Shown here in pieces: positions 4,077-23,152 of a DNA stretch of 36,018 nucleotides. The notes under the pieces are model-generated. The model searched no databases. It was not told where the DNA came from and was given only the letters and a program-made list of their open reading frames with translations. This stretch comes from Syntrophomonadaceae bacterium (GTDB taxonomy: Bacteria; Bacillota; Syntrophomonadia; Syntrophomonadales; Syntrophomonadaceae): assembly GCA_012522955.1 (NCBI GenBank), contig JAAYJK010000033.1:1-36018 (forward strand). The letters run 5' to 3'. The stretch's first letter is position 1. Each line of letters begins with the position of its first letter. A program made the translations under genes and the position numbers.

Positions 4077-4117
4077 GTGACATGAAACAGTCTGACGTTC
4101 TTTCTGTTTCATGTCAC
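4077..4117 (+). terminator. 14-bp perfect hairpin after the small gene
   Basis: GTGACATGAAACAG (4077-4090) pairs perfectly with CTGTTTCATGTCAC (4104-4117) around a 13-base loop. It begins four bases after the stop codon of the small gene and ends four bases before the -35 box of the purine promoter. No T-tract follows on the plus strand, so it is not a textbook Rho-independent terminator. It could be a 3'-end stabilising hairpin or a DNA operator beside the promoter. Confidence 0.5.
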
Positions 4118-4120
4118 GGG

Positions 4121-4149
4121 TTGACACCCGGTAAGTGCTTTGTTAATAT
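4121..4149 (+). promoter_or_regulatory. Sigma-A promoter of the purine operon
   Basis: TTGACA at 4121-4126 and TAATAT at 4144-4149 are separated by 17 bases, which is close to the consensus. Transcription would start near 4156, just upstream of the riboswitch aptamer at 4184. This placement strongly supports the promoter as the source of the purE leader. Confidence 0.85.
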
Positions 4150-4183
4150 CAAGATGTAATTAAATAACATATATAAAGCGAAA

Positions 4184-4277
4184 GTGTGTCTAGGGTTCCG
4201 CATGATAATAGTGGACTGGTCCGAGTGACACAGGCGCTTAATGGCGCTACACCGTATAGGGATAAAAGCCCAGGCGG
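4184..4277 (+). ncRNA. ykkC-family riboswitch, probably PRPP-sensing, controlling the pur operon
   Basis: The leader shows the conserved ykkC signature in order: TCTAGGGTTCCG (4189-4200), CTGGTCCGAG (4216-4225), then ACACCGTA (4250-4257) leading into GGGATAAAAGCCC (4259-4271). The P1 strands TGTGTC (4185-4190) and GACACA (4227-4232) pair. The ykkC class includes guanidine-, ppGpp- and PRPP-binding subtypes. The PRPP subtype is known from Firmicutes purine operons, where ligand binding turns expression on. The position directly before purE makes PRPP the best assignment, but I infer the ligand from context and have not aligned the subtype-specific positions. No guanine aptamer fits between the promoter and this aptamer, so the tandem guanine-PRPP arrangement is absent here. 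The end of the aptamer overlaps the terminator stem, giving a plausible switch. Confidence 0.85.
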
Positions 4278-4320
4278 ACAGGTTTCGGTTACGAAACTGC
4301 CCGCCTGGGCATTCTATTTG
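4268..4320 (+). terminator. Riboswitch-controlled intrinsic terminator
   Basis: GCCCAGGCGG (4268-4277) pairs with CCGCCTGGGC (4301-4310), and GTTTCG pairs with CGAAAC near the loop. The tail, ATTCTATTTG, is a modest T-rich run. The left arm is shared with the conserved AAAAGCCC end of the aptamer. Folding of the ligand-bound aptamer should therefore block the hairpin, which is antitermination. Confidence 0.8.
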
Positions 4321-4409
4321 CATAGACAATGATGGCTTGTTCAAATAGAAAAGAAGCCTTGAAACCGCAAAAGTAGAGGTTTTGCTAAAAAATAGGAGGA
4401 ATGTTATCG

Positions 4410-4928
4410 ATGCCGGATATAGGAATAATAATGGGCAGTGATTCTGACCTGCAGGTCATGAAAGAAGCCGGGGAGATGCTGGAAGGATTCGGACTCAGCT
4501 ACGAATATACCATTTGTTCTGCTCACCGTTTGCCCCAGGCCACAGCTGACTATGCTCAAAATGCAGCCAGCAGAGGAATGAAGGTGATCATTGCCGGGGC
4601 CGGGGGAGCAGCCCACCTGCCTGGGGTAATAGCAGCCTATACTCTTCTGCCGGTAGTGGGAGTACCTATAAAGAGCAGTACATTATCAGGGATTGATTCA
4701 CTGTATTCCATAGTGCAGATGCCTAAAGGCATTCCCGTGGCTACGGTAGCCATTAATGGAAGTGCCAACGCTGCTCTATTGGCGGTGCAGATTCTGGCCC
4801 TGGGTGATGAAAAACTCCAATCTGCTCTGCTTGAGTATCGGCAGGAAATGGCTCAGGGCGTGCTGCAAAAAGACCAAAAACTAAAAGATATTGGAGTACA
4901 AAGCTACCTGGAAGAAAAAAAATCATAA
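4410..4928 (+). CDS. purE: N5-carboxyaminoimidazole ribonucleotide mutase PurE
   Basis: A cytoplasmic 172-residue enzyme of de novo IMP synthesis that forms 4-carboxy-AIR. The family motifs are plain: GSDSDLQVM near residue 9, SAHRLP around 37-42, then [15 protein letters not shown] and [19 protein letters not shown]. The GSDSDLxVM and AHR motifs match the bacterial class I (mutase) form rather than class II. I start at the ATG at 4410, nine bases after AGGAGGA (4394-4400). The upstream ATG at 4401 abuts that site with no spacing. It is the first gene of the operon, behind the riboswitch. The expected partner purK, which supplies N5-CAIR, is not next to it or anywhere in the window. Confidence 0.97.
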
Positions 4929-5005: not shown

Positions 5006-6301
5006 ATGATAGCAAGATATACGCTGCCTCGTATGGGAGCTATATGGTCGGAAGAAAACAAACTTCAGAACTGGTTAAAGATCGAAATCGCCGCCTGTGA
5101 AGGACAGGCTTTAATCGGACGCATTCCCCCGGCAGCGGTGGAGGTAATAAGAGAAAAGGCTGATTTTGATATAGAAAGGGTTAAGGCAATTGAAGCCAAG
5201 GTTCATCATGATGTGATCGCTTTTTTGACCAATGTTGCTGAATATGTTGGGGATGAATCCAAATACATACACTTAGGGATGACTTCATCAGATATTTTAG
5301 ATAGCGGATTGGCCCTGCAAATGAGACAAGCGTCCAATTTAATAATGGAAAAATTACAGGTCTTGAAAGAATTGGTGAGGGATAAGGCCAAAACTTATAA
5401 ATATACCCTGAATATTGGCAGGACTCATGGCATTCATGGCGAACCCACCACCTTCGGATTAAAAATGGCTCTCTGGCACAGCGAAATAGAACGCAATATA
5501 CAGCGCCTGGAGCAAGCCCGGGAAATGATAGCTTACGGCGCTATCTCTGGAGCGGTAGGCAACTTTGCCCATATAGATCCCCGGGTGGAAGAATACGTGT
5601 GTGAAAAACTAGAATTGAAGCCCTGCCCGGTTTCCACCCAGATCATTCAGAGAGATCGCCACGCCCAGTTTATGACTACTTTAGCCATTATCGCCAGTTC
5701 CCTGGAGAAAATGGCCACTGAGATCAGGAACTTACAGCGCACAGAAATTCTGGAAGTGGAAGAACCCTTTCAGAAGGGTCAGAAAGGCTCCTCCGCTATG
5801 CCCCACAAGAGGAACCCCATGATGAGTGAAAGGGTAGCCGGATTGTCCCGGGTTATAAGAGGGCATGCGGTAGCTGCTTTGGAGAATGTGGCCCTATGGC
5901 ATGAACGGGACTTAACTCATTCCTCGGTGGAGAGGGTTATCATTCCCGACAGCTGTATTTTGCTGGATTATGTACTGGAAAAATTCTGCGCTATTGTGGC
6001 TGATTTGGTCATATATGAAGACAACATGATGGAAAATATTCAACGCACCCGGGGACTCATTTTCTCCCAGGAGCTGATGCTTAGTCTGGTTGATAAAGGC
6101 ATGCTTCGGGAAGATGCCTATCGGTTGGTGCAAGGTCATGCCATGCAGAGCTGGCAGGAAAAATTGGATTATAAAGATCTGGCTTTGCAGGATACGGAAA
6201 TTATGAACTATATAAGCCCTGGTGAAATCGAGATTATATTCGATCTGCAAATATACCTGAATGGCGTGGACTATATTTTTAGGCGCTGTGGATTGGAATA
6301 G
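5006..6301 (+). CDS. purB: Adenylosuccinate lyase PurB
   Basis: A 431-residue fumarase/aspartase-superfamily lyase that removes fumarate from SAICAR to give AICAR, and from adenylosuccinate to give AMP. Visible motifs are TSSDILDS (93-100), the RTHG segment with the catalytic-type His at 141, and the family signature SSAMPHKRNP at 262-271 on the flexible catalytic loop. Length is normal for the short bacterial form. The ATG at 5006 follows AGGAGG (4993-4998) by seven bases. It lies 77 bases downstream of purE and 17 upstream of purC, so it is clearly cotranscribed. It also serves the AMP branch, so operon control by PRPP would affect that too. Confidence 0.97.
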   Translation: MIARYTLPRMGAIWSEENKLQNWLKIEIAACEGQALIGRIPPAAVEVIREKADFDIERVKAIEAKVHHDVIAFLTNVAEYVGDESKYIHLGMTSSDILDSGLALQMRQASNLIMEKLQVLKELVRDKAKTYKYTLNIGRTHGIHGEPTTFGLKMALWHSEIERNIQRLEQAREMIAYGAISGAVGNFAHIDPRVEEYVCEKLELKPCPVSTQIIQRDRHAQFMTTLAIIASSLEKMATEIRNLQRTEILEVEEPFQKGQKGSSAMPHKRNPMMSERVAGLSRVIRGHAVAALENVALWHERDLTHSSVERVIIPDSCILLDYVLEKFCAIVADLVIYEDNMMENIQRTRGLIFSQELMLSLVDKGMLREDAYRLVQGHAMQSWQEKLDYKDLALQDTEIMNYISPGEIEIIFDLQIYLNGVDYIFRRCGLE

Positions 6302-6318
6302 TATGGGAGGAAAAGGTA

Positions 6319-7032
6319 ATGGAAAAAAGGGAGAAGCTTTACGAGGGCAAAGCCAAGCAGATATTTGCGGTAGATGATGAACGCTATTATATTATGACTT
6401 ACAAAGATGAGGCCACTGCATTTGACGGGACCAAAAAAGGCATTATTGAAAATAAGGGGATAGTCAACAATCGGATATCCTGCCTCTTATTTAAAATGTT
6501 GGAAGAAAAGGGGATCGAGACCCATCTGCTGGAGCAGCTGGATGAGCGCAATGTATTGGTGAAACGCTTGCAGATGCTGCCGGTAGAGGTGGTGCTGAGA
6601 AATGTGGCAGCCGGCAGTCTTGCCCAGCGCTTAGGGATGGAAGAGGGAAGGGAACTGCAGATCCCAATTATAGAGCTTTATTACAAAAATGATGATCTGC
6701 ACGATCCCATGATAAATGAATACCATGCTCAGGCCATGGGATGGGCTACCTGGGAACAGCTGAAAGAAGTGCAAAGCCTGAGTTTAAGGATTAATCAGAT
6801 ATTAAGGAAATTATTTGATAGCATCGGCCTGATATTGGTGGATTTTAAGCTGGAGTTTGGTATTTATGATAACAAGATAGTACTGGGAGATGAGATTTCT
6901 CCAGATAGCTGCCGCTTGTGGGACCAAGTCAGCCGGGAGAAGATGGACAAAGACCGTTTCCGCCGGGATTTGGGCGGAGAAGCTGAAGCTTATCAGGAAG
7001 TAGTAAGAAGAATTGAAGAGGTACTGGGATAA
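6319..7032 (+). CDS. purC: SAICAR synthetase PurC
   Basis: Phosphoribosylaminoimidazole-succinocarboxamide synthase, 237 residues, the usual length of the stand-alone bacterial enzyme. It joins aspartate to CAIR using ATP. The N-terminus carries the family's YEGKAKQIF segment (about residues 9-17). The middle has VEVVLRNVAAGSLAQRLG, and the C-terminal half has LVDFKLEFG followed by GDEISPDSCRLWD, both typical nucleotide/substrate-binding blocks. The ATG start follows GGGAGGAAAAG at good spacing. It sits between purB and purS in the standard Firmicutes order. Confidence 0.97.
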   Translation: MEKREKLYEGKAKQIFAVDDERYYIMTYKDEATAFDGTKKGIIENKGIVNNRISCLLFKMLEEKGIETHLLEQLDERNVLVKRLQMLPVEVVLRNVAAGSLAQRLGMEEGRELQIPIIELYYKNDDLHDPMINEYHAQAMGWATWEQLKEVQSLSLRINQILRKLFDSIGLILVDFKLEFGIYDNKIVLGDEISPDSCRLWDQVSREKMDKDRFRRDLGGEAEAYQEVVRRIEEVLG

Positions 7033-7097
7033 GGTTTCTCCTAAAGCTCCTGCTGTTACTGCCAAGGCTAAGTTAATAAGATAGAGGAGGCAAAAAG

Positions 7098-7349
7098 GTG
7101 CTAAAAGCTAATATTTATGTAACCCTTAAAGATGGAGTGCTGGATCCTCAGGGAGAGGCAGTTAAAAAGTCCCTCAAGGTTCTGGACTATGGACAGGTTA
7201 ATCAGGTACGCATCGGCAAATTCATAGAAGTGTGGCTGGAGGGAAAGGATCAGGCAGCAGCCTTAAAGGAATTGGAAGAAATGAGCGATAAACTGCTGGC
7301 CAACCCAGTTATAGAAGACTATCGGGTGGAAATAGTGGAGGTATACTAG
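7098..7349 (+). CDS. purS: FGAM synthase subunit PurS
   Basis: An 83-residue small subunit that links the glutaminase PurQ to the synthetase PurL in the three-part formylglycinamidine ribonucleotide synthase. The sequence shows the expected pattern: an opening beta strand ([17 protein letters not shown]), a [19 protein letters not shown] block and a C-terminal [15 protein letters not shown]-like end. The start is a GTG, supported by AGAGGAGG seven bases upstream. It ends two bases before purQ, whose ribosome site lies inside the end of this gene, so the two are probably translationally coupled. Confidence 0.95.
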
Positions 7350-7351
7350 TC

Positions 7352-8053
7352 ATGAAATTTGGGGTAGTAATATTTCCCGGTTCCAACTGTGATAGGGATT
7401 GTTATCATGTGATAAAGGAAGTTATGAAAAAGCCGGTAGAGTATATATGGCATAAGGAAAACTCGGTAGCCGCTTTCGATGCCCTGATTCTGCCGGGAGG
7501 GTTTTCTTATGGGGATTACTTGCGTACCGGGGCCATTGCCCGCTTTTCCCCCCTTATGTCGGCAGTAATGGATTTTGCCCAAGCAGGAGGCCTGGTGATA
7601 GGCATCTGCAATGGTTTTCAGATATTGCTGGAAGCCGGTTTGCTGCCGGGAGCCATGCTGAGAAACAGCAGCCTAAAGTTTATCTGTCAACCGGTATTTC
7701 TAAAAACACAGCGCAATGATACTCCGTTTACCAACAAATTTAAGAGCGGGCAGGTACTGAAGATTCCGGTAGCTCATGGGGAAGGCAATTATTATTGTGA
7801 TCCCCGGACTTTGCAGAAAATGAAAGATAAAGGCCAGATCCTCTTTTCCTATTGCAGTGCTGAGGGGGAGGACACTATGGAGTATAATCCCAATGGTTCT
7901 CTGGCCAACATAGCCGGAATTATGAATGAGAAGGGTAATGTGCTGGGAATGATGCCCCATCCGGAAAGGTGCTCGGAGGAGATTCTGGGTGGCCGTGATG
8001 GGTTCAATATATTTGCTTCTATGATCAATTGGCTTGAGGGGGTGGGCGAATAA
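7352..8053 (+). CDS. purQ: FGAM synthase glutaminase subunit PurQ
   Basis: A 233-residue class I glutamine amidotransferase that delivers ammonia to PurL. The nucleophile Cys is at residue 86 in [11 protein letters not shown], and the matching His-Glu pair is in MMPHPERC near residue 208. The N-terminal [14 protein letters not shown] block is typical of PurQ. The length fits the stand-alone Firmicutes subunit. Its stop overlaps the purL start as TAATG (8051-8055), a classic translational coupling. The start ATG uses the GGAGG at the end of purS. Confidence 0.97.
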
Positions 8054-10254
8054 TGAAGGAAATGACTTATCAAGAGATGGGCTTGCTGGAAGAAGAATAT
8101 GAGCAAATCGTAGGAATATTGGGCCGCCAGCCTAATTATTTGGAATTGGGTATGTTTTCAGTAATGTGGTCAGAGCATTGCGGATACAAAAACTCTCGTC
8201 CTTTGCTAAAGAAATTTCCCACCGAAGGCCCTCAGGTCATACAAGGTCCGGGTGAAAATGCCGGGGTAGTTGATATCGGCCATGGCCAGGCCTTAGTGTT
8301 TAAAATCGAAAGTCATAATCATCCTTCTGCCATCGAGCCATACCAAGGTGCAGCCACCGGGGTAGGGGGGATTGTACGGGATATTTTCACTATGGGGGCC
8401 AGACCCATAGCTTCTCTTAACTCCCTGCGCTTTGGCAGTTTGGATGATGAAAGGGTAAAACAGCTTCTGGCCGGAGTAGTGGCTGGTATCGGTGATTATG
8501 GCAACTGTTTAGGCATACCTACGGTAGGAGGCGAAGTCTATTTTAACCAGGCTTACCAAGGTAATCCTTTGGTCAATGCCATGTGTGTCGGGCTGGTCAA
8601 TACCAACGAAATAGCCTATGCTACCGCCAGTGAGATAGGCAGCCCCCTTATGCTGGTAGGAGCCAAAACCGGTCGAGATGGTATTCATGGGGCTACATTT
8701 GCCTCGGAGGAATTGAGTGAAGCCTCAGCTCAGAAGAGGCCTTCAGTGCAGGTAGGGGATCCCTTTATGGAGAAACTGCTAATAGAAGCCTGTCTGGAAT
8801 TAATAAAAGAGGACCTGGTAGCGGGTATGCAGGACCTGGGAGCCGCAGGATTGACCAGTTCCATTGCCGAAGCCGCCAGCAAAAAGGAACGAGGAGTAAA
8901 AGTTGACGTATCCCGGGTGCCCAGAAGGGAACAGGGAATGATCCCCTATGAGGTAATGCTGTCCGAATCCCAGGAGAGGATGCTGATTGTACCTCGAGAA
9001 GGAAAGGAAGGACGCATTGCGGAAATCTTTGAGAAGTGGGGACTGGATGCCACAGTTATCGGTGAGGTTACCGGAGATGGCTGGTTTAAGGTCTATGAAG
9101 GAGAAGTGCTGGCAGGAGAGGTGCCGGTAGCAGCCTTGACCGAAGGCTGTCCGGTATACGCAAGAGAGGGTCTTGAGCCTTCATATTATAAGGAATGCCG
9201 CGATTTTGATCTGGATGAACTGCCTGAATATGATGCCGGCGAAGCTCTGGCTAGCCTGCTTGCTTCGCCCAATATTGCCAGCAAACGCTGGGTATATTCC
9301 CAGTATGATCACCAGGTAATGATTAATTCAGTATTGGTGCCCGGGGAGGCTGATGCTGCAGTATTAAGAATAAAGGGGCAGCAAAAGGGAGTGGCCGTGA
9401 CTACTGATTGCAACGGGCGCATGGTCTACCTGGACCCCTATCAGGGTGGGATGATGGCGGTGTGCGAAGCAGCCCGCAATTTGGCCTGTGTAGGAGCCAA
9501 ACCTTTAGCCCTTACCAACTGCCTTAATTTCGGTAGTCCCGAGAATCCTCATATATATTGGCAGATGCAAGAGGCTATTCGGGGGATGGCAAAAGCGGCC
9601 CAAAAACTAGGCGCCCCGGTAGTAAGCGGGAATGTCAGCCTTTATAATGAAACGGCGGCCGGAGCCATATTCCCCACTCCAGTGGTGGGTATGGTAGGAT
9701 TATTAAAGGATATAGAGCATCGTTGCGGCATGGCTTTACATGATGAAGGAGATATGCTGGTTTTGTTAGGCCCAATCCGGGAGGAACTGGGTGGATCTGA
9801 ATATCTTCAAGTATGTTACGGTCTAGAAAAGGGGAAGGTGCCGGAGGTGGACCTGGAACAGGAAAGCCGTCTCATTGAGATGCTGATAAGCCTTATCGAA
9901 GCCCGCCTGTTAAAATCCTGTCATGATATTTCCGAGGGGGGACTGGCTATAGCCCTGGCCGAATCCGCTATTAAAGGGATGATAGGATTTAGAGTGCAAT
10001 GGGATTGGGGTGTACGGAGGAAGGATAGAATACTCTTTTCTGAAGCTTCAGGGCGGGTGGTAGTGAGCCTGGATGAAAAAGATTTAGCATCTTTGAGCAG
10101 TTTAGCTACTCAATATGAAATCGAATTCCTTGAACTGGGCCGGGTTGGCTCAGATCGAATGATTTGGGAAGAAGATGGCATTGAATTTGTAAACCTGGCG
10201 GTACAGGATGCGGCCAGGATTTGGGGGGAGGCCATAGAATGCCACATGAAGTAA
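8053..10254 (+). CDS. purL: FGAM synthase large subunit PurL (small-PurL type)
   Basis: A 733-residue ATP-dependent synthetase converting FGAR to FGAM. It is the small PurL form, which needs PurS and PurQ, matching the preceding genes. The two internally homologous halves are visible. The first carries [30 protein letters not shown] and [20 protein letters not shown], and the second carries [23 protein letters not shown] and [10 protein letters not shown]. The GAATG overlap with purQ and the 16-base overlap with purF mark it as an internal operon gene. No truncation is seen. Confidence 0.97.
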
Positions 10255-11630
10255 AAGATAAATTTAAAGATGAGTGCGGGGTATTTGGAGTATTTCTGAA
10301 AGAGCCAGAACAAGAAAACGATGCCGCCCGAGCTGCTTTTTATGGTCTATATGCCTTGCAGCATAGGGGCCAGGAGAGTGCCGGAATTGCAGTTTCCGAT
10401 GGTCATAAAATTAGCCTGCACAAGGGTATGGGCTTGGTTACGGAGGTTATCAAACCTGAAACCATTAAAAATCTGAAGGGTAATATTGCTATAGCCCATG
10501 TTCGCTACTCCACTACAGGAGAAAGCGGCATTGTGAACGCCCAGCCCATGGTATTTCATTACCTGCAGGGAATGCTGGGTTTGGCTCATAATGGTAATCT
10601 TACTAACACAGCGGACTTGAGAAAACAGCTGGCTACTTATGGTTCCGTATTCCAGACTACTACCGATACCGAATTGGTGGCCAATCTGTTAGCCCGGTAT
10701 TCCCAGGATACCCTGGAGGATGGGCTTAACAAGTGCTTGATTGATCTTAAAGGGGCTTTTGCCCTCATTATTATTACTGAAGACAAAATGATAGGTATTA
10801 GGGATCAAATGGGGATTCGCCCTCTGTGTTTGGGGGATTATGAGGGTAACTATGTACTGGCTTCGGAAACAGCAGCCTTGGATACTATCGGGGCCAAGTT
10901 TATCCGCGATATTAAGCCGGGAGAGATTGTCATCATCGACCAGGAGGGTTTGAGATCCAGCCAGGTAGTTAAATCTCCCCGCTGTGCTCACTGTGTTTTT
11001 GAATACATTTATTTTGCCCGGCCCGATAGTACCCTGGATGGGATAAATGTTTATCAGGCTCGGCGGGAACTGGGTAAACAGTTGGCTCGGGAGAGTGATA
11101 TCGATGTGGATTTGGTTATACCGGTTCCGGATTCAGGTACTGCAGCGGCCTTGGGTTATGCTGAGGAAGCTGGATTGCCCTTTCAGGATGGCTTGATGAA
11201 AAACCGCTATGTGGGCAGAACCTTTATCCAGCCTACCCAGAAAATGAGGGAATTGAGTGTTCGGCTGAAACTAAATGCGGTAAATAAAATCGTGGCCGGC
11301 AAGCGGCTGGTAATGGTAGATGATTCTATAGTAAGAGGGACTACCAGCAAACAGATAGTACAGATGCTCAGGGAGGCGGGAGCTAAAGAGGTGCACATGG
11401 CAGTCTCCTCACCTCCTACCAGTTACCCCTGTTATTACGGCATCGATACCTCACGTCGGGAAGAATTGATAGCAAGCAAGATGGAGGTAGAGGAAATAAG
11501 GCAGTTTATTGGGGCCGACAGCCTGTATTACCTGAGCCGGGAAGGCATGTTCCAGGCTCTGGGAGGCAACTCGGAAAAATACTGTGACGCCTGCTTCAGT
11601 GGCCTTTACCCGGTGGGAACGGAAAGCTAG
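10239..11630 (+). CDS. purF: Amidophosphoribosyltransferase PurF
   Basis: The committed step of purine synthesis: PRPP plus glutamine to phosphoribosylamine. I start at the ATG at 10239, seven to eight bases after GGGGGGAGG, giving 463 residues. An upstream in-frame TTG is inside that ribosome site. The N-terminal nucleophile Cys is residue 13 (DECGVFGVF), so a 12-residue propeptide is expected to be removed. The PRPP-binding motif is in [12 protein letters not shown]. Cysteines at RCAHCVFEY and the C-terminal CDACFSG, with PCYYG, fit the Bacillus-type enzyme with a 4Fe-4S cluster. That cluster is oxygen-sensitive, which suits an anaerobe. It consumes the ligand proposed for the operon's riboswitch. 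Confidence 0.97.
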
Positions 11631-11704
11631 AGGCCAAGGGGATAACCTATTGTACAAACAGCAAGTCTGAGACAGGCAGGTATAATAAGGTCGGGAGGTT
11701 TAAT

Positions 11705-12739
11705 ATGAATAAAACGGGACTTAGTTACAAGGAGGCCGGAGTTGATATAGATGCTGCCAGTGAGTCAGTAGATATGATCAAAAAATGGGTAGGCATGACT
11801 CGCAGGCCCGAAGTCATGACCGAAATTGGTTCTTTTGGAGGGCTTTTCGCCCTGGATACGAGCAAGTATAAGGAGCCTGTTTTGGTTTCCGGCACTGATG
11901 GAGTAGGAACCAAGTTGAAAATAGCCCAGATGACAGGGGTTAGCGATACGGTAGGAATCGATCTGGTGGCCATGTGTGTGAATGATATCTTGGTGCATGG
12001 AGCTGAACCCTTGTTCTTTTTGGATTATATTGCAGTAGGTAAATTGAAACCGGAGCGTATAGAATCTATGGTTAAAGGAGTCAGCCAGGGATGCATGCAG
12101 GCTGGATGTGCCTTGATTGGCGGGGAGACAGCGGAGATGCCGGGTCTGTATGCCGAGGATGAGTACGACCTGGCTGGTTTTGCGGTTGGAGTAGTGGAAC
12201 GTTCCCAGATAATAGATGGCAGCAAGATTGAGGATCATGATATTCTCATTGCTCTGCCCTCGTCAGGACTTCACTCCAATGGCTATTCTCTGGTGCGCAA
12301 GGTAATGGAAAAAGCCGGCCTGGGTCTGGATGATGAGCTTCCAGGTTTAGGTAAAACCCTGGGTCAGGAGCTTTTAACTCCTACTCGCATTTATGTTAAG
12401 ACTATACTGAGCTTGCTGCAGCAGGTGGAGGTAAAAGGGATGGCTCATATTACCGGGGGGGGGATAGTAGAAAATTTGCAGCGTGTGCTTCCCTCTGGGC
12501 TAGGGGCCTTGATAGATGGGGATAAAATTCCGGTTCCACCGGTTTTTCATCTCTTGCAAGACCTGGGTGGGATACCCTCGGCCGAAATGTATCGGACTTT
12601 TAATATGGGTATTGGTTTCGTGCTGGTGGTAGCTCCGGAAAAATGCTCGGGGGCTTTAAATCACTTGCAGGATAAAGGTGAAAAGCCGATAATTATAGGG
12701 AGTATTAGTGCCCGGGAAACAGGGGTGGTAATTAAATGA
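11705..12739 (+). CDS. purM: AIR synthetase PurM
   Basis: Phosphoribosylformylglycinamidine cyclo-ligase, 344 residues, which closes the imidazole ring of AIR using ATP. It shares the fold of PurL. Family blocks include [11 protein letters not shown] at the N-terminus, [29 protein letters not shown] and the C-terminal [10 protein letters not shown]. The ATG follows GGGAGG at normal spacing. Seventy-four bases separate it from purF, and its stop overlaps the purN start (ATGA). Confidence 0.97.
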
Positions 12740-13368
12740 AGCAGCTTATGACTGCCCGGCAGCTTAAGCTAGCGGTATTGGCATCGGGGCGGGGTAGTAA
12801 TTTTGATGCTATTGGCCAGGCTATTGAGAGAAAAGATCTCAATGCCCGGATAGTAGTATTGATCAGTGATCAGTCTCAGGCTCCGGCCCTAGCCAAAGCA
12901 GCCGGTAGAGGTATTGAAACCTTGCCCATTAGTCCCCGGGATTATTCTGGCCGCGATGCCTATGAAGAGTGTTTGGTGCGGGAATTAGAGGCCAGGCAGG
13001 TAGATCTGGTAGTTTTGGCCGGATATATGCGCCTGGTGGGAAAGGTTTTTCTGCAGGCTTATGAACATCGGGTATTAAATATCCATCCAGCCCTCCTGCC
13101 CTCCTTTCCAGGTTTGCATGCCCAGCAACAAGCTTTGGATTATGGAGTTAAGATCAGTGGCTGTACCGTTCATTTGGTAGATGAAGGAATGGACAGCGGA
13201 CCAATTATACTGCAAAAGGCGGTAGCGGTTTTGGATAGTGATGACGAGGAAGCTCTTTCCCAACGCATATTAAAGGAAGAACATCAGATATATTGGCAGG
13301 CTCTGCAGTTAATAGCTGAAGGGCGAGTGTGGATTGATGGCAGAAGGGTAGTAATAAAGGACAATTGA
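12736..13368 (+). CDS. purN: GAR transformylase PurN
   Basis: Phosphoribosylglycinamide formyltransferase using 10-formyl-tetrahydrofolate, 210 residues. The catalytic Asn and His are in [12 protein letters not shown], the Asp is in [10 protein letters not shown], and the phosphate-binding [12 protein letters not shown] loop is near the N-terminus. The start at 12736 overlaps the purM stop (ATGA). An in-frame ATG four codons later (12748) is the alternative. No purT-type formate-dependent enzyme is seen in the window. Confidence 0.96.
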
Positions 13369-13445
13369 AGCAAAGGGTGCCGTATTATTTATAAAACGGT
13401 GTTTCAGGACTATAGACCAGATAATTATTAAGGGGGAAAAGAAAA

Positions 13446-14966
13446 ATGAAGCGAGCTCTGCTTAGTGTTTCCAATAAAGAAGGAATTGTAGATTTTGCCC
13501 GGGCCCTGGAGCAATTGGGCTTCGAGATAGTCTCCACTGGGGGTACCTACCAGACTCTGTTGGAGGCGGGAGTAAAAGTTCTTAAAGTATCTGACCTGAC
13601 TGGCTTTCCGGAGATTTTGGATGGCCGGGTCAAGACTCTTCATCCCAAAGTACATGGTGGAATATTAGCCCGCCGCACTGATAATCATCTGCAGCAGCTG
13701 CAGGATAATGATATAGACACAATAGATCTAGTCTGTGTAAATTTGTATCCCTTCCGGGAAACGGTAAGAAAGGAAGGGGTTAGTCTGGAAGAAGCCATTG
13801 AGAATATCGATATTGGCGGTCCTACCATGATCAGGTCGGCGGCCAAGAATTATCAGGACGTTGTTGTAGTGGTTAAACCTGAACTTTATGGGTCAGTATT
13901 AACTGCCTTACAGGAACAGGGAGAGTTAGCTCAGGATCAGCGTTTAAAGCTGGCTTTAGAGGCTTTCAGTCATACCGCCGCTTACGATGCTATGATAACA
14001 GCTTATCTGTCTCAAGTTACCGGCAGCATTTTCAATGATAATTATGTGCTGGCGGGAGAGAAGGTTTACGAGCTGCGCTATGGAGAAAACCCCCACCAGA
14101 AAGCCTGCTTTTATCGCAATATGACTCCGGGCCTAGGCTTGCCGGATGCCCAGCAGCTGAATGGAAAAGAATTATCCTATAACAACATTATTGATGTACA
14201 GGCGGCATGGGCTCTGGTCAAGGAGTTTTCCGATCCAGCCTGTGTAATTATTAAACATACCAATCCCTGTGGCACGGCCGTAGCTCCAGAACTGGACCAG
14301 GCTTATGATCTGGCTTTTGCTGCCGATCCCAAATCAGCCTATGGAGGAATTATAGCTTTCAATCGACCAGTAGACCCAAAAACGGCGGAAAAAGCGGCTG
14401 GACCATTTATGGAAGCCATTATTGCCCCGGGCTATGATGATACTGCCTTAGCAGTTTTTCAGGCCAAGAAAAACCTGCGGGTTTTGCAGCTGCCTATTAA
14501 GGATCAGCAGGATATGCAGTTAAAAACCGTAGAGGGCGGATTTGTGTTGCAGGATCCGGATCTGGACAGCATCGGGGCGGAAGATCTTAAGGTAGCAACT
14601 GATACAGCTCCCAGTCCAGAGCAGATCAAGGACTTGCTCTTTGCCTGGAAAGTAGTTAAACATGTTAAGTCCAATGCTATCGTGGTGGCGAAAGACCAAA
14701 TAACACTGGGAGTTGGAGCAGGTCAGATGAATCGGGTAGGTTCAGCTGCCATAGCCATGGAGCAGGGCAAAGAAAAATGTCAGGGAGCGGTTATGGCCTC
14801 AGATGCCTTTTTCCCTTTTAAAGATACAGTAGAATTGGCCGCACGCTATGGTATTAAGGCCATAATTCAACCCGGAGGTTCCATTCGGGACCAGGAGAGC
14901 ATAGATGAATGTAACCGGCATGGAATTGCCATGGTATTTACCGGTTTAAGGCATTTTAAACACTAG
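13446..14966 (+). CDS. purH: Bifunctional AICAR transformylase / IMP cyclohydrolase PurH
   Basis: The last two steps to IMP, 506 residues. The N-terminal MGS-like cyclohydrolase domain (about 1-150) shows [23 protein letters not shown] and [15 protein letters not shown]. The transformylase domain shows [14 protein letters not shown] and the IKHTNPCG motif with its catalytic Lys-His. The length is typical. The ATG follows AAGGGGGAAAAG. It also takes up the AICAR released by HisH/HisF, encoded 7 to 9 kb downstream, which links the two pathways of this window. A 77-base gap separates it from purN, with no obvious terminator. Confidence 0.97.
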
Positions 14967-15003
14967 AATAAAGCGGCGGAGTGAAGGACAGGGAGGTTTT
15001 AAA

Positions 15004-16281
15004 TTGGGTAAGAGAGTACTGCTTATTGGCCAAGGAGGTCGGGAACATGCCCTGGCCTGGAAAATTGCTCAAAGCCCGGTGCTGGAAAAGCTCTATGCGG
15101 CCCCAGGCAACCCAGGCATGGAGGAATTATGTGAGTGTATCCCTATCGATGCTGTTGACATGGAAGGACTGTTAAGTTTTGCCTTACAGGAAAAGATTGA
15201 TCTTACCGTGGTGGGACCGGAGGCTCCTCTGATGGAAGGAATTGTAGACCTTTTTGGGGAACATGGACTTACTATCTTTGGACCTACTGCAGCTGCGGCT
15301 AGGTTGGAAGGCAGCAAAGTGTTTACCAAAAACCTCTTAAAAAAATATAGCATTCCCACGGCTGAATACGAGGTTTTTCATGATATAGAGCCGGCCCGGG
15401 AGCACATTAAGACCTATACTGATTCTGGTAAGTCCATTGTGGTTAAAGCTGACGGCCTTGCCGCTGGCAAAGGGGTAGTGGTGGCAGCTGACTATCAAGA
15501 GGCCAGCCAGGCTTTGGATGCCATTATGAAAGACAAGGAATTTGGTATGGCCGGAGACCAGGTGGTAATTGAAGAATGCCTTTTCGGACAGGAAGTGAGT
15601 TTTTTTGCCATTAGCGATGGCAGCAATTATGTATCCTTGTTATCGGCTCAGGATCACAAACAGGTATTTGATAGTGATAAAGGCCCTAATACTGGCGGGA
15701 TGGGGGCCTACTGTCGCCCTCCCATTTATACTAGGGAGTTGCATCAACAGGTGGTGGACCAGGTAATAGCACCGGTAATAAAGGCTATGGCTACTGAAGG
15801 AATCCCCTACCAGGGAGTGCTTTATGCAGGTCTTATGATTACCGAAACAGGCCCTAAGGTACTGGAGTTTAATGCCCGATTCGGTGATCCGGAAACTCAG
15901 GTCTTGATGCCTATGATAAAAAGCGATATTTTACCATTGCTGGAAGCAGCCGCTAAAGGCAAGCTGGATGAGCAAGAGGTGGAACTGGAAACCGGTACCT
16001 GTATCTGCGTGGTCTTGGCATCAGGAGGCTATCCAGGAGCTTATCAGAAGGGTAAAGAAATAAAGGGCCTGGACAGCCTGGATCCGGATACCTTGATCTT
16101 CCATGCCGGTACCAGCAAAAAAAACCAAAGCTTCTATACCAATGGAGGAAGGGTGCTGGCCGTGGTCCGTCGGGGAGAAGATATGAAAAGTCTAATAGAT
16201 AGAGTATACCAGGAAGTACAGAAGATAAGTTTTGATGATATGCATTACCGGCGTGATATTGGCAAGAAGGCACTGGTTTAG
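15004..16281 (+). CDS. purD: GAR synthetase PurD
   Basis: Phosphoribosylamine-glycine ligase, 425 residues, an ATP-grasp enzyme. The N-terminus has VLLIGQGGREHALAW. The ATP-grasp core has VVKADGLAAGKGVVVA, and the metal/substrate region has LEFNARFGDPETQVLMP. The start is a TTG, supported by GGGAGG seven bases before it. Other starts in frame would cut into the conserved N-terminal strand. It is the last gene of the purine order, followed 11 bases later by a membrane-protein gene in the same direction. Confidence 0.96.
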   Translation: MGKRVLLIGQGGREHALAWKIAQSPVLEKLYAAPGNPGMEELCECIPIDAVDMEGLLSFALQEKIDLTVVGPEAPLMEGIVDLFGEHGLTIFGPTAAAARLEGSKVFTKNLLKKYSIPTAEYEVFHDIEPAREHIKTYTDSGKSIVVKADGLAAGKGVVVAADYQEASQALDAIMKDKEFGMAGDQVVIEECLFGQEVSFFAISDGSNYVSLLSAQDHKQVFDSDKGPNTGGMGAYCRPPIYTRELHQQVVDQVIAPVIKAMATEGIPYQGVLYAGLMITETGPKVLEFNARFGDPETQVLMPMIKSDILPLLEAAAKGKLDEQEVELETGTCICVVLASGGYPGAYQKGKEIKGLDSLDPDTLIFHAGTSKKNQSFYTNGGRVLAVVRRGEDMKSLIDRVYQEVQKISFDDMHYRRDIGKKALV

Positions 16282-16292
16282 GGAGGCAAGAA

Positions 16293-16826
16293 ATGAATCC
16301 CAGATTAGCTCCGTTTATAAGGGTAGGAGGATTAATAGTACTGGTATTAATGCTTTTTCACCTTCCCACCCGGGAGTTTTTGAAAGTTACATTTATGCTT
16401 GGAATACCCTTTGTCTTTGCACTAGCTTTTATGAAAAAAAGCAGCAAGTACTCTCTGGGCTGGTTTGCCACCCTGTTCTTGGTGCTTATGGTGGTGGGGT
16501 TTTACCTGTATATGTTGACCGGTTTGCCCCAGCGCATTACTCTTCATGAGATTGAAATTGATGCCACAGTTCTTTTGACCGAGGGTAAATTTGATGAAGC
16601 CCAGGAAAAGTTCAGCGAAATGGAACCATATGTTAGCCCTGAAACGCTAAATAAAAAATATACCCTGGTAGAAAAGGAAAAAGATGCAGCCCTGAAGGTG
16701 GAAGAAGCCGGGGAATTGATGGAGGCTGGAGAAAAGGAGAAAGCCCGGCAGCTCTTGGAATCGGTTCCATCTGACAGTATGGCTCAGCGGGAGGCCGCCC
16801 GTCTGCTTAAAACTTTAAGAGAGTAG
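16293..16826 (+). CDS. Membrane protein with cytoplasmic or external helical tail, unknown
   Basis: A 177-residue protein with three predicted membrane helices (about residues 10-24, 29-46 and 54-75). A hydrophilic tail of about 100 residues follows, rich in Glu, Lys and Ala. The tail reads like two TPR-type helical hairpins (LLTEGKFDEAQEKFSEM and LMEAGEKEKARQLLESVP, both with the Leu-Gly-Ala spacing of TPRs). I do not recognise a named family. The ATG follows GGGAGGCAAG. The gene begins 11 bases after purD and ends nine bases before the HD gene, so it is probably cotranscribed with both. Nothing in the sequence suggests a purine or histidine enzyme. A scaffold or sensor role would be speculation. 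Confidence 0.85.
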   Translation: MNPRLAPFIRVGGLIVLVLMLFHLPTREFLKVTFMLGIPFVFALAFMKKSSKYSLGWFATLFLVLMVVGFYLYMLTGLPQRITLHEIEIDATVLLTEGKFDEAQEKFSEMEPYVSPETLNKKYTLVEKEKDAALKVEEAGELMEAGEKEKARQLLESVPSDSMAQREAARLLKTLRE

Positions 16827-16835
16827 GAGAATTTT

Positions 16836-17498
16836 ATGCTTACACTGGAACAAGTCAAGACCAATGAAATGGTGCAGGCCTATATGAGATTGGGCAATGA
16901 GTATATAGGTACAATAGGGGCTATTGAACATAATCTTAGTCATGCCGAATATGTTTCTAACTTGTGTTATCAGATACTGCAGCAACTGGGATATTCTTTG
17001 CGGGAAGCGGAGCTGGGAGCTATAGCCGGATATCTGCATGATATAGGCAATCTGGTTAATCGCTATGGGCACGGTATGTCGGGAGCTTTGCTAGCCTTCG
17101 ATACTCTTATGGAGATGGGAATGGAGCCGGAAGAAGTGGCAGCCGTTATGGGGGCTATTGGCAATCATGAGGAGCACGCTGGAGGAAACAGTATCAACGT
17201 TATTGGAGCTGCCTTGATATTAGCGGATAAATCGGATGTACACCGATCCAGGGTTAGAAAACAGGAGATCTCTTCCTTTACCCCTAGAGATCGAGTAAAC
17301 TATGCAGTAAGCGATACCAGCCTTAGTATAGATGTGGAAAATAAGTTGATATCCCTGGAAATTGAAATAGATACCGAAGTATGTTCGGTAATGGAATATT
17401 TCGAAATATTCCTGACCAAGATGCTGATGTGCAGGCGGGCGGCTCAGTACCTGGGTTGTGAATTTGCACTATTGGTAAACAATAATCGCTTATTATAA
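16836..17498 (+). CDS. HD-domain phosphohydrolase
   Basis: A 220-residue soluble protein with the HD metal-binding pattern: His36 (HNLSHAEYV), His68-Asp69 (YLHDIGN), His79, His111 (GNHEEH) and Asp131 (LADKSD). This is the layout of the HD phosphohydrolase superfamily, which cleaves phosphomonoester or phosphodiester bonds in nucleotides. The domain covers residues 30 to about 140. The C-terminal 80 residues form a beta-rich segment of unclear role. The substrate cannot be read from the sequence. It lies between the pur and his genes, nine bases after the membrane protein. Histidinol-phosphatases are PHP-, HAD- or inositol phosphatase-like rather than HD, so I do not propose it as the missing his enzyme. 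Confidence 0.85.
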   Translation: MLTLEQVKTNEMVQAYMRLGNEYIGTIGAIEHNLSHAEYVSNLCYQILQQLGYSLREAELGAIAGYLHDIGNLVNRYGHGMSGALLAFDTLMEMGMEPEEVAAVMGAIGNHEEHAGGNSINVIGAALILADKSDVHRSRVRKQEISSFTPRDRVNYAVSDTSLSIDVENKLISLEIEIDTEVCSVMEYFEIFLTKMLMCRRAAQYLGCEFALLVNNNRLL

Positions 17499-17696
17499 GA
17501 AGGGAAGCCGCCAGCTGCGTAATGGATAGTGGTCAAGAGGGTGGAAGTCTTAAGATAAAGGAACTGAGCCCCACCTTCAGCGTGGGAATCTGATTATAGG
17601 CGCCCGTCGGTCTGGGATGCTATGAAGTCCCGGCATGAGCCCATGCCAGCTAGCGGTAATGTCCTCATAATATACTACTACAAGGAGCCGATAATA
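17499..17696 (+). other. Structured, unassigned leader upstream of hisZ
   Basis: This region of about 200 bases has no ORF but dense base pairing. CCGCCAGCTG (17508-17517) pairs with CAGCTAGCGG (17647-17656) with one mismatch, enclosing the rest. Inside are GGCATG-AGCC-CATGCC (17632-17647), GGGA/TCCC (17614-17631) and CCCAC/GTGGG (17570-17586). The segment AGGGTGG (17538-17544) can instead pair with CCACCTT (17571-17577), which would exclude the last hairpin. The AGAGGGTGG stretch slightly resembles a T-box core, but the full T-box motif and a T-run terminator are absent. It could be a his leader or an independent RNA. I cannot name it. Confidence 0.45.
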
Positions 17697-18848
17697 ATGA
17701 GAAATAGGCAAATTCCAAAGGGATTGCGGGATTTACTACCAGATGAAGTGAAGGTACTTAGAAGTATGGAGAAAAAGGCGGCCCGGCTTTTTTCCAGTTA
17801 TGCATATGAAGAGGTAATGACTCCTACTTTTGAATTCTTGGAAGTGATTGAAGCCGGGCGCGGGAGTAGGCGGGAGGATCTTTTTCTCTTTATGGATCGG
17901 GAAGGAGGCATCCTGTCATTGCGGCCGGAAGTTACCGGATCCATTGCCCGCATGGCGTCCATCCATCTGCATGACTCTGATTTTCCCCGACGCCTGTTTT
18001 ATACCGCTAATGTTTTTCGCCATGTACAACCTCAGCTGGCCCAGTATCGAGAATTCAGGCAGACTGGAGTGGAACTGTTGGGAGCAGCAGGAATATGGGC
18101 TGATGCTGAAGTAATAAATATAGCGGTAAAGCTGCTGGAAACCATGGGTCTGGAAAACTTTAAAATCAGTATCAATCAACTGCCTATATTCAATAGTCTT
18201 TTGGATGACAGCGGCCTAAACATGGAAGACCGGAGGCTGGTACGCCAATTGGTGGAGGAAAAGGATTTGGTGGAACTATATCGCTTGCTGGAAGGCTTGG
18301 ATATTGATGATGAGCTAAAAGACACCATAGCTGCCTTGCCGGTCTTGCATGGTGGTTTGGATGTTATCCAGCGTATACCCTATGTAGAAAAAAATCGCAA
18401 GGCCTCGGCAGCGGTAGGAGAATTGATCAAGATTTATGATGCCCTTAAGCTATATGGAACCACTGAACATATTGTGGTGGATATGGGGGTATTGAGGAAC
18501 CTGGACTATTATACCGGATTGGTCTTCGAGGGCTATTCCCCCGATTTGGGCTATGGCTTGTTAGGAGGCGGAAGATACGATAATTTACTGGGACAATTCG
18601 GACTTAGCTGTCCTGCTACCGGTTTTGCCCTGCATATGGACAGGCTGGCCCTGGTCTTGAAATGTCGGGATGAGGAAAGAAATCATTACCTGGTGGGCGG
18701 TGGTAGTTATCCAGCCATGATTGGCCAGGCTCAAAAGCTGCGGGAACAGGGATATGCTGTGGAAATGGACCTGGAAGAACATAGCCGGGCTGAGCTGGAG
18801 AAGAAGATAGAGGGGAAAGATAACTGGACCCTGGTTTATTTGGATTAA
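17697..18848 (+). CDS. hisZ: ATP phosphoribosyltransferase regulatory subunit HisZ
   Basis: A 383-residue paralogue of histidyl-tRNA synthetase lacking the anticodon domain. It forms the octameric HisG-HisZ complex and makes the short HisG active and histidine-sensitive. Class II synthetase-like blocks are visible: MTPTFEFLEVIEAG, SLRPEVTGSIARMAS, and LLGGGRYDNLLGQFG with GFALHMDRLAL. I start at the ATG at 17697, nine bases after AAGGAG. An upstream in-frame ATG at 17622 lies in the structured leader and would add 25 unlikely residues. The neighbouring short hisG confirms the assignment over HisS. Confidence 0.95.
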   Translation: MRNRQIPKGLRDLLPDEVKVLRSMEKKAARLFSSYAYEEVMTPTFEFLEVIEAGRGSRREDLFLFMDREGGILSLRPEVTGSIARMASIHLHDSDFPRRLFYTANVFRHVQPQLAQYREFRQTGVELLGAAGIWADAEVINIAVKLLETMGLENFKISINQLPIFNSLLDDSGLNMEDRRLVRQLVEEKDLVELYRLLEGLDIDDELKDTIAALPVLHGGLDVIQRIPYVEKNRKASAAVGELIKIYDALKLYGTTEHIVVDMGVLRNLDYYTGLVFEGYSPDLGYGLLGGGRYDNLLGQFGLSCPATGFALHMDRLALVLKCRDEERNHYLVGGGSYPAMIGQAQKLREQGYAVEMDLEEHSRAELEKKIEGKDNWTLVYLD

Positions 18849-18861
18849 AGGGGATGATAAT

Positions 18862-19518
18862 ATGAAGCAGGATTTTTTAACTATTGCCCTGTCAAAAGGT
18901 ACGCTGCTTAAGCCAACCGTAGAAATGCTGAAGCAGGCGGGACTACCAGTCGGCGGCTTGACTGAGGACAGCCGCAATATGGTCTTCAGCTATGAAGAAG
19001 AGGGCATTAAATACCTGATGTGTCGTCCCACGGATGTTCCCACCTATGTAGAGCAAGGAGCGGCCGACCTGGGGATAGTAGGCAAAGATGTTATTGTAGA
19101 ACAGGCTAAAGATGTTTTTGAAATGGTTGATCTTAAATATGGCTACTGCCGCTTTGTGGTGGCGGTACCGGATAGTATGAAAGACCGGGATTTAAGGGAA
19201 CTCAATTACCGGCGAGTGGCCAGCAAATTTCCTCTGATAGCGGAAAAGTTTTTCCGGGAGCAGGGCTTGCAGGTAGATGTGATTAAACTGCATGGAAATG
19301 TGGAATTGGCGCCTTTGATGGGTTTGGCCGATATGATCGTGGATTTGGTTTCTACTGGGCGTACCCTTAAAGAAAACAATTTGGTGGAGCTAGTAAAGAT
19401 AATGGATTCTACCACTAGGCTTATTTGTAACCGGGTTAGTTATAGAATCAAGCATGAGAGCATTCAGCCCTTGATAGAAAACATACAAATAATAGTGAAG
19501 GGTGGGGACAGGATATGA
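18862..19518 (+). CDS. hisG: ATP phosphoribosyltransferase catalytic subunit HisG (short form)
   Basis: The first committed step of histidine synthesis: ATP plus PRPP to phosphoribosyl-ATP. At 218 residues it is the short form, lacking the C-terminal regulatory domain, and therefore needs HisZ from the preceding gene. Motifs are ALSKGTLLKP at the N-terminus, ADLGIVGKDVI, and the PRPP-binding LADMIVDLVSTGRTLKEN. It starts 13 bases after hisZ and overlaps hisD by ATGA. Feedback by histidine would act through the complex. Confidence 0.96.
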   Translation: MKQDFLTIALSKGTLLKPTVEMLKQAGLPVGGLTEDSRNMVFSYEEEGIKYLMCRPTDVPTYVEQGAADLGIVGKDVIVEQAKDVFEMVDLKYGYCRFVVAVPDSMKDRDLRELNYRRVASKFPLIAEKFFREQGLQVDVIKLHGNVELAPLMGLADMIVDLVSTGRTLKENNLVELVKIMDSTTRLICNRVSYRIKHESIQPLIENIQIIVKGGDRI

Positions 19519-20804
19519 AATTGCCCAGGATTAAGGCATCCAGCCCAGATTTGATGACTTTTTTACAGGCCAACTATGACGATATGAAACAGTATGAAGG
19601 CCGAGTGCAGGAGATTGCTCGAGCAGTGCGGGAGCGGGGCAATCAGGCCATATTTGAATTCAACCGGAAATTTGATGGGGCCTTGATTGATGAAGATAAT
19701 TTTAGAGTAAGTGAGGAAGAATTCGAAGCCGCCTATAATGCAGTTGACGATGAATATATATTTGCCTTGCGGGCTGCTATTGACAACATTGAGCTTTTTC
19801 ATGCCCGGCAGTTGAGAAATTCCTGGATGGAACCTGATGAGCGAGGCTGTATATTGGGCCAGGTATTCCGTCCCTTGGAAAGAGTGGGCATATATGTGCC
19901 CGGAGGCACTGCCGCTTATCCATCTTCAGTGCTTATGAATGCCATCCCGGCTCAGGTAGCCGGAGTTCAGGAAATAGCAATGGTAAGCCCACCGGGGCAG
20001 GATGGAAAGATGAACCCCTATACTCTGGTGGCAGCCAACGAGCTGGGCCTGCAGGAAGTATATAAGATGGGTGGAGCTCAGGCCATATTTGCCCTAGCCT
20101 GGGGAACTGAGACCATCAAAAAAGTGGATTTAATTAGTGGCCCCGGCAATATATACGTAACCCTGGCCAAGAAAATGGTTTATGGAGATGTTAATATAGA
20201 TATGCTGGCCGGGCCCAGTGAAATACTGATAGTAGCCGATGATAAGGCCAGCCCCACATATGCAGCGGCGGACATGATGTCCCAGGCCGAACATGATGTA
20301 TTGGCCCGCAGCATACTGATCAGCACCAATTCATACTTTTTGGATCGGGTGGAAGAAGAATTAAGCCGACAGGTTCAGACCCTTTCCCGCCAGGATATTA
20401 TAAGTCAATCTCTGCAGCGATACGGAGCCTTGATATTGGCTGAGAACATGAAAGAGGCTTGCGAAGTGGCTAACCTGATTGCAGCAGAACATTTAGAACT
20501 TATGGTAGAAAATCCTTTTGAACTGCTGAGCCTGATTAAGAACGCCGGTGCTATTTTCATGGGTAACTATAGCCCGGAACCAGTAGGGGATTATTTTGCC
20601 GGACCCAATCATATACTGCCCACCGGCGGCACAGCCAGGTTCTACTCCCCGGTTAGTGTTGATACCTTTACCAAGGCTTCCAGCCTGATTTATTACTCGA
20701 GGCAGGGTATGAAGGAGGACGCCGACCAGATTATCAAACTTGCTACAGTGGAGGGACTGGGGGCCCATGCTAATTCCCTTCGACTGAGAAAGGAGGATGA
20801 ATGA
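19515..20804 (+). CDS. hisD: Histidinol dehydrogenase HisD
   Basis: A zinc- and NAD-dependent enzyme of 429 residues that oxidises histidinol to histidine, the final two oxidations. It shows ERVGIYVPGGTAAYPSSVLM, DLISGPGNIYVTLAK, AGPSEILIVAD, and the catalytic/zinc region AEHDVLARSILIS. The C-terminal block is YFAGPNHILPTGGTARFYSP. Length is normal. The start overlaps the hisG stop and the end overlaps hisB, so the three are tightly coupled. Confidence 0.97.
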   Translation: MKLPRIKASSPDLMTFLQANYDDMKQYEGRVQEIARAVRERGNQAIFEFNRKFDGALIDEDNFRVSEEEFEAAYNAVDDEYIFALRAAIDNIELFHARQLRNSWMEPDERGCILGQVFRPLERVGIYVPGGTAAYPSSVLMNAIPAQVAGVQEIAMVSPPGQDGKMNPYTLVAANELGLQEVYKMGGAQAIFALAWGTETIKKVDLISGPGNIYVTLAKKMVYGDVNIDMLAGPSEILIVADDKASPTYAAADMMSQAEHDVLARSILISTNSYFLDRVEEELSRQVQTLSRQDIISQSLQRYGALILAENMKEACEVANLIAAEHLELMVENPFELLSLIKNAGAIFMGNYSPEPVGDYFAGPNHILPTGGTARFYSPVSVDTFTKASSLIYYSRQGMKEDADQIIKLATVEGLGAHANSLRLRKEDE

Positions 20805-21397
20805 TGGAGAAGCTTAGAAAGACTGAAGTACAGAGGAAAACCAGTGAAACTGAGGTTTTGCTGCAGTTGAATTTGGATGGAACTGGCAGTCATCAGATTG
20901 ATACTGAAATACCTTTTTTAAGTCATATGCTTACCCTGCTCTCCTTGCACAGTCTTTGCGATCTTAAGGTTACCGCCCGGGGAGATATTGAAGTGGATGA
21001 TCATCATACAGTGGAGGATATAGGGATATGTTTGGGCCAGGCTCTGGACCAAGCCCTGGGTGAAAAAAGGGGTATTCGCAGATACGGGGCCGCAACCATA
21101 CCTATGGATGAGGCCCTGAGCCGGGTAGTAATTGATCTCTCAGGTCGCTCGATATTGGTATATAATGTGGAATTGGACCGAGAGTCTATCGGTAATTTTG
21201 CCACCGAAAACGCTCGGGAATTTTTTAAGGCAGTAGCCAACGGTGCCCGGATGGGAATACACATTGATGTGATTAGAGGCAACAATGCCCATCATATACT
21301 GGAATCCATTTTTAAAGGATTTGCCCGGGCATTGAAAGAAGCGGTGGAAATCGAACCCCGTATGGAAGGCATTTGGTCTTCCAAAGGCAAGCTGTGA
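20801..21397 (+). CDS. hisB: Imidazoleglycerol-phosphate dehydratase HisB
   Basis: A monofunctional dehydratase of 198 residues that makes imidazole acetol phosphate. The metal-binding histidine clusters are present: FLSHMLTLLSLHS, DDHHTVEDIG and the C-terminal NNAHHILESIFKGFARAL. There is no fused phosphatase domain as in enterobacterial HisB, so histidinol-phosphate phosphatase must be encoded elsewhere. The start is ATG at 20801 (overlapping the hisD stop) or the next codon at 20804, following AGGAGG at 20791. Confidence 0.96.
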   Translation: MMEKLRKTEVQRKTSETEVLLQLNLDGTGSHQIDTEIPFLSHMLTLLSLHSLCDLKVTARGDIEVDDHHTVEDIGICLGQALDQALGEKRGIRRYGAATIPMDEALSRVVIDLSGRSILVYNVELDRESIGNFATENAREFFKAVANGARMGIHIDVIRGNNAHHILESIFKGFARALKEAVEIEPRMEGIWSSKGKL

Positions 21398-21439
21398 TAA
21401 AACAGGCTATAGAAGGATGAAGGCCGGGAGGATTACATT

Positions 21440-22045: not shown

Positions 22046-22392
22046 TAGCATTAGAGCCTAGACTTAGATTATCAAAGCTGTTATGTATACAGGGAAGATA
22101 CCGGGGGAAAAAACAGGATGCTTTCAAGATCCCAGTTCTCTTTTATGGTTCTGGTTAATGCCTGAGCTTCGAGGCAGGCCATTGATAATGCCTCAATGGT
22201 TAAGGCAGTGCTTGAAGTGGGATTCGTTAGACCCGGTTAGTATTGATATATAATTACGTAATTAGCCTGCGAAAACCTGCGAAATATACTATTGGCAGGC
22301 TAATCACTACTTAGATTAAGGACATGTTTCCGGCAGCGGAGAGAAACGGCCTCCTGATGCCGAATAAAGATAATGACGAGGTGTAATTACAG
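22046..22392 (+). other. 347-base structured gap between hisH and hisA
   Basis: An unusual non-coding interval inside an otherwise tight operon. It holds a perfect 10-bp inverted repeat, ATTAGCCTGC (22261-22270) with GCAGGCTAAT (22295-22304). Its left arm overlaps a tandem CCTGCGAAA repeat. CCATTG/CAATGG pairs nearby (about 22178-22198), and ACTTAGATTA occurs at 22062-22071 and again at 22309-22318. A weak GTTAGA-17-TATAAT pair (about 22226-22254) might be an internal promoter. The only ORF (22083-22253, 56 codons) lacks a ribosome site. Confidence 0.5.
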
Positions 22393-23121: not shown

Positions 23122-23152
23122 ATGTGGAAGAGAGACTGGAGGAGGAAAACAT

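Follow-up and report, generated by a model that had tools for sequence, protein, structure and literature searches.

A predicted singlet PRPP riboswitch with an enlarged P3 loop ahead of purine and histidine genes in a Syntrophomonadaceae bacterium

The leader and the purine operon

On the forward strand of the window (the whole stretch of DNA analysed, 36,018 nt), a promoter, a ykkC-class aptamer and an overlapping terminator precede a purine operon, which is followed by two joining ORFs and a set of histidine genes. Aptamer positions are numbered as in the T. mathranii PRPP aptamer and were aligned via the nucleotides named in the available text of that report (PMC6031431). The features are:

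4121-4149, + strand: sigma-70 type promoter TTGACA-17-TAATAT with extended -10 (TG); -35 at 4121-4126, -10 at 4144-4149
about 4178-4287, + strand: predicted PRPP (ykkC subtype 2b) aptamer including P0; match to PRPP model R1 at 4171-4295 (109.3 bits), to RF00442 with 59.8 bits
4180-4183, + strand: 5′ strand of helix P0, GAAA, pairing with UUUC at 4283-4286 in the R1 consensus structure
4183-4184, + strand: A4183 and G4184, equivalent to the ligand-contacting A5 and G6 (numbering from PMC6031431)
4225-4226, + strand: G48 and U49, subtype marker (sequence and PMC6031431)
4255-4258, + strand: UAUA, a Syntrophomonadaceae-specific sequence that enlarges the P3 internal loop facing G96
4272-4282, + strand: A95 G96 ... 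A101 C A103 G104 G105, S-turn and ligand-contacting 3′ strand (PMC6031431)
4268-4310, + strand: intrinsic terminator hairpin, its 5′ arm made of the P3 3′ strand and a P0 segment
4311-4319, + strand: U-rich tract of the terminator, AUUCUAUUU; modest, short and interrupted
4401-4928, + strand: purE (TIGR01162), first gene under the predicted control
5006-16281, + strand: purB, C, S, Q, L, F, M, N, H and D, mostly closely packed
16293-17498, + strand: two ORFs (orf177, 177 aa; orf220, 220 aa) joining pur to his, with gaps of 11 and 9 nt
17697-24561, + strand: hisZ, G, D, B, H, A, F and IE, behind orf220

The promoter agrees with the consensus at 10 of 12 positions. Its motif score alone is at the chance level (3 promoter-like sites found, 3.5 expected), and the proposal of a promoter in an earlier note on this DNA is supported by its recurrence, since sequence and position are kept in 34 of the 36 family members; for the remaining two, the 75 nt of upstream sequence inspected may be too short to reach it. 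The -10 hexamer lies about 28 nt from the aptamer, and transcription would start near 4157. Directly upstream of the promoter, past a small ORF ending near 4073, a strong inverted repeat (GTGACATGAAACAG...CTGTTTCATGTCAC, 4078-4117) is possibly the terminator of that ORF. A search for a phage origin of the leader found no match.

The terminator hairpin folds with -33.9 kcal/mol (z -8.3 against dinucleotide shuffles, 0 of 200 being as good) and shares GCCCAGGCGG with the aptamer helix P3, re-using the GCCC of AAAAGCCC and the adjoining AGGCGG. The same overlapping hairpin is present in all 36 family members, with 4 to 9 U within the next 10 nt, and the overlap makes P3/P0 and the terminator mutually exclusive in each of them; the sharing of an aptamer segment, already pointed out by the earlier note, is thereby confirmed. 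A 9-bp inverted repeat, TTCTATTTG...CAAATAGAA, spans 4313-4350 and starts inside the U-rich tract; it is found in the closest relative and is absent from the other members of the genus.

PRPP riboswitches are RNA switches that turn purine synthesis on when PRPP is plentiful. Because the terminator shares GCCCAGGCGG with P3, binding of PRPP should permit read-through. The leader RNA would fold as P0-P1-P2-P3, in which P3, its docked loop and P0 together make up the PRPP pocket. With PRPP bound, P3 and P0 would retain GCCCAGGCGGACAGGUUUC, the terminator would be blocked and the polymerase would enter purEBCSQLFMNHD. In the absence of the ligand, the 3′ arm GAAACUGCCCGCCUGGGC would take up GCCCAGGCGGACAGGUUUC, leading to formation of the hairpin at 4268-4310 and a stop in the U-rich tract. 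We infer both PRPP binding and antitermination at this leader from those class members that have been tested, Facklamia purC and Heliobacterium purB (PMC5912903). The 11-gene purine operon announced by the earlier note indeed consists of purE B C S Q L F M N H D, and the true start of purE is probably the ATG at 4410, which follows GGAGGA.

Subtype and distribution of the aptamer

The ykkC sequence blocks CUAGGGUUCCG, GGUCCGAGUG and ACACCG..GGGAUAAAAGCCC were found at 4190-4271 of the + strand and, together with the match to RF00442 (Guanidine-I; 59.8 bits, E 3.5e-10), they bear out the class proposed from the letters alone. This is the sole relevant Rfam match. As it falls short of the gathering score of 63, a gathering-level Rfam scan missed the element, which was revealed in E-value mode. 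The search of Rfam 15 returned no PRPP family for direct comparison, and a sub-gathering score might be what a non-guanidine subtype gives. The end coordinate of 4320 given previously is correct, the aptamer proper occupying about 4178-4287.

The earlier note had called for a contest between covariance models of the three subtypes. Models R1 (31 PRPP loci) and R2 (11 ppGpp loci) were built entirely from outside the Syntrophomonadaceae, and R3 from 8 guanidine-I sequences, some of them from family genomes but belonging to a different element. With classes set by marker nucleotides rather than by experiment, the window aptamer scores 109.3 bits on R1, 89.9 on R2 and 44.9 on R3; the PRPP model thus wins by 19 bits over ppGpp. 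Across 95 loci, the PRPP-minus-ppGpp margin runs from about +16 to +29 bits in Syntrophomonadaceae and is at most -17 in the ppGpp training set, hence separating the latter from the PRPP set. The PRPP-type assignment is further supported by U49, G96, A101, A103, G104, G105 and P0. G96 (4273, + strand) is present in 36 of 36 Syntrophomonadaceae and 37 of 37 other PRPP aptamers, an A standing there in 14 of 14 ppGpp-type sequences; position 96 was reported to be G in >97% of the PRPP class and never G in ppGpp aptamers, and a pyrimidine at position 49, here U49 (4226, + strand), to indicate a subtype other than guanidine-I (PMC6031431). In the R1 alignment the window aptamer carries the P0 tails (GAAAG ... 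AGGUUUC), and the P0 pairing GAAA/UUUC also emerges from the consensus fold of the PRPP aptamers of other families.

These data weigh on two other readings of the element. A guanidine-I riboswitch, which the sole Rfam family match would imply at face value, is hardly conceivable: that match lies below the gathering score, the guanidine-I model trails the PRPP model with 44.9 against 109.3 bits, position 49 is U instead of A, the GGGAGA 3′ block is missing, and the genes downstream serve purine synthesis, neither a guanidine exporter nor a carboxylase being among them. A ppGpp riboswitch (subtype 2a) has the same fold and would be activated in the stringent response. Its model gives the window the highest score among all PRPP-type loci scored, A101 is common to many ppGpp aptamers, and UAUA adjoins the nucleotide that sets PRPP/ppGpp specificity. 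It is nevertheless very unlikely, given the 19-bit deficit, the purine gene context, U49 instead of the C49 of the ppGpp set, a GGUUUC rather than a GUUCC tail and the presence of G96, as the single change G96A converts a Thermoanaerobacter aptamer to ppGpp (PMC6031431). Against the PRPP switch itself, it can be held that the U-rich tract is short and interrupted, and that the internal loop of P3 exceeds that of nearly all other PRPP aptamers by 2 nt, so that identity of its pocket with the crystallised one cannot be assumed. We nonetheless regard 4178-4287 with high confidence as a singlet PRPP riboswitch that works as an ON switch at the level of transcription. As such it belongs to a known class and is ordinary within it; PRPP binding and antitermination are predicted for it, and its identification is sound but in itself ordinary.

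The window's genome holds one such element; two further RF00442 matches in it (17.1 and 13.8 bits) were rejected as chance. An RF00442-type match was obtained in 50 of 61 relatives. An exact search for ACACCGTATAGGGATARAAGCCC in 84,980 species genomes returned 43 stretches, nearly all from Syntrophomonas, Thermosyntropha or Syntrophomonadaceae, which places the window in this family. Where family members have enough flanking sequence, the element almost always lies upstream of purine genes, most often purE. In some family members the pur operon is split, and every part has retained a UAUA-type PRPP riboswitch of its own (L019/L050 of G013, L034, L009/L035). At four loci of other families (L011, L028, L056 and L060), the gene behind a PRPP-type aptamer is an ORF of about 430-463 aa without a match among the pur or his genes of the window.

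The earlier note also held that the site has no guanine aptamer. With roughly 28 nt separating the aptamer from the -10 hexamer, there is no room for one, and no guanine/purine aptamer (RF00167) was detected in the whole genome or in the 25 family genomes searched, which extends the claim well beyond the site. Purine aptamers do occur in several other families of the phylum, some abutting a ykkC match and thus representing tandem forms. No PurR was found above the curated cut-off. Without a guanine aptamer, the operon would read precursor supply only, at this site.

A family-specific loop in helix P3

In P3, CCG pairs with CGG and GGG with CCC, and the internal loop between them faces the S-turn that holds G96. 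On its 5′ side the loop is 2 nt long in 35 of 37 PRPP aptamers of other families, GA being common in the sister families, and the window departs from this pattern with UAUA; the 2-nt length is a regularity of the present sample, outside the published class definition as far as the latter is legible. UAUA is present in 36 of 36 Syntrophomonadaceae aptamers (35 of the aligned sequences are distinct, with a pairwise identity of 0.86 on average and 0.73 at the lowest) and in none of the 37 from other families. Of 299 genomes drawn evenly from the phylum, 46 matched a pattern that ignores the loop, and UAUA was present in 9, all of them Syntrophomonadaceae. Position 101 follows the same division, being A in 34 of 36 Syntrophomonadaceae and G in 36 of 37 elsewhere. 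The accessible main text of PMC5912903 makes no mention of a UAUA loop.

A single gain with shared descent could be enough on its own to explain the distribution of UAUA. That UAUA stays the same where P1b and P2 vary suggests, at the level of sequence comparison, that the loop is under constraint. UAUA is a natural, lineage-fixed change adjoining the nucleotide on which the distinction between PRPP and ppGpp depends, and offers a ready test of whether the ykkC pocket tolerates insertions or uses them. The loop and the arrangement of pur, his and hisR described below are two details that go beyond the earlier note.

Histidine genes behind the purine operon and known systems

The order pur-(orf177)-orf220-his recurs in those relatives whose 20-kb regions reach that far, orf177 being undetected in two. 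The product of orf220, which has weak, sub-threshold similarity to HD domains, is 63-91% identical in relatives. Between orf220 and hisZ, the gap is 198 nt in the window (17499-17696), 145-191 nt in two genomes of the same genus, and 26 and 16 nt in two same-genus relatives (G001 and G002, respectively). Most relatives outside the genus carry between these genes a small gene of the yecD_yerC family (the HisR of PMC9413887). None of the five genomes of the window's genus has this hisR, which 15 of 20 other family genomes carry. The gap of about 320 nt before hisZ in relatives was considered as a T-box leader and rejected: it holds no Rfam RNA and contains a 99-codon ORF, which belongs to the TrpR-like yecD_yerC/HisR family. 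In the window, no hisR remnant was found in the gap by tblastn, and no HisR operator (CACTTTAN6TAAAGTG, 3 mismatches) was found in the stretch as a whole. Further along, the hisH-hisA gap measures 347 nt (22046-22392) and includes an inverted repeat, ATTAGCCTGC...GCAGGCTAAT; it is about 230-255 nt in three same-genus genomes and often about 10 nt elsewhere. In one relative (L068 3178-5741, genome G031), a PRPP riboswitch stands before purF, with hisF as the very next gene and the other pur genes elsewhere.

The earlier note had suggested that the riboswitch would also control the his genes if they were on the same transcript. The plausibility of this idea is strengthened by the adjacency of pur and his, which is conserved across the family, the gaps of 16-26 nt in two same-genus genomes and the loss of hisR; co-transcription itself is still inferred. 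The his genes probably lie on the riboswitch transcript or on a read-through transcript and, as hisR is missing from all five genomes of the genus, the predicted PRPP-dependent read-through is the only his regulator found here. A riboswitch confined to pur, with a his promoter in the 17499-17696 gap or inside orf177 or orf220, is a less likely but serious competitor. The 198-nt gap and its counterparts of 145-191 nt would provide space for such a promoter, a weak match (9/12) lies at 17643-17671, and the position of hisR directly before hisZ in most other family members implies that separate his regulation existed. However, matches of this quality are at chance level (25 found, 32 expected), the spacing shrinks to 26 and 16 nt in the two relatives above, no terminator-like site was found on the + strand in the purD-hisZ gaps, no T-box or other Rfam RNA was found in the window gap before hisZ, and all five genomes of the genus lack hisR. 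On balance, control of his via read-through past orf177 and orf220 is moderately favoured, with less certainty than control of pur.

PRPP feeds both purine and histidine synthesis. A PRPP sensor before a joint pur-his block would be a simple, all-RNA means of matching two biosynthetic drains to precursor supply. More tentatively, the element may be a distinct structural variant in which the fixed 2-nt UAUA expansion and A101 tune affinity or selectivity and in which, HisR having been lost in the window's genus, the same RNA governs purine and histidine synthesis, the two large pathways that consume PRPP, as one transcript.

Compared with known systems, the window aptamer has its overall fold and P0 in common with the ppGpp riboswitch (ykkC 2a), and differs from 14 examples of the latter, in which G96 is lacking, position 49 is C, the P3 loop has 1 nt and the tail reads GUUCC. 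The tandem guanine-PRPP riboswitches (PMC5912903) share the PRPP half and the expression platform and have, unlike the window, an upstream guanine aptamer (RF00167). The crystallised T. mathranii PRPP aptamer (PMC6031431) is identical to the window at the contacts A5, G6, G48, C77, C78, G96, A101, A103, G104 and G105. It has C49 where the window has U49; the window has UAUA in the P3 loop, for which the available text of PMC6031431 gives no legible T. mathranii sequence. The closest likeness is with the singlet PRPP riboswitches of Heliobacterium modesticaldum purB and Facklamia ignava purC (PMC5912903), which share the aptamer blocks, G96, a pyrimidine at 49, P0, a P3 antiterminator, an overlapping terminator, purine genes and the ON logic, the latter being assigned to the window by analogy. 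The window differs in its 4-nt UAUA where the P3 internal loop nearly always has 2 nt, in A rather than the G at 101 of the other families sampled, in purE as the first gene and in a his block behind the pur block.
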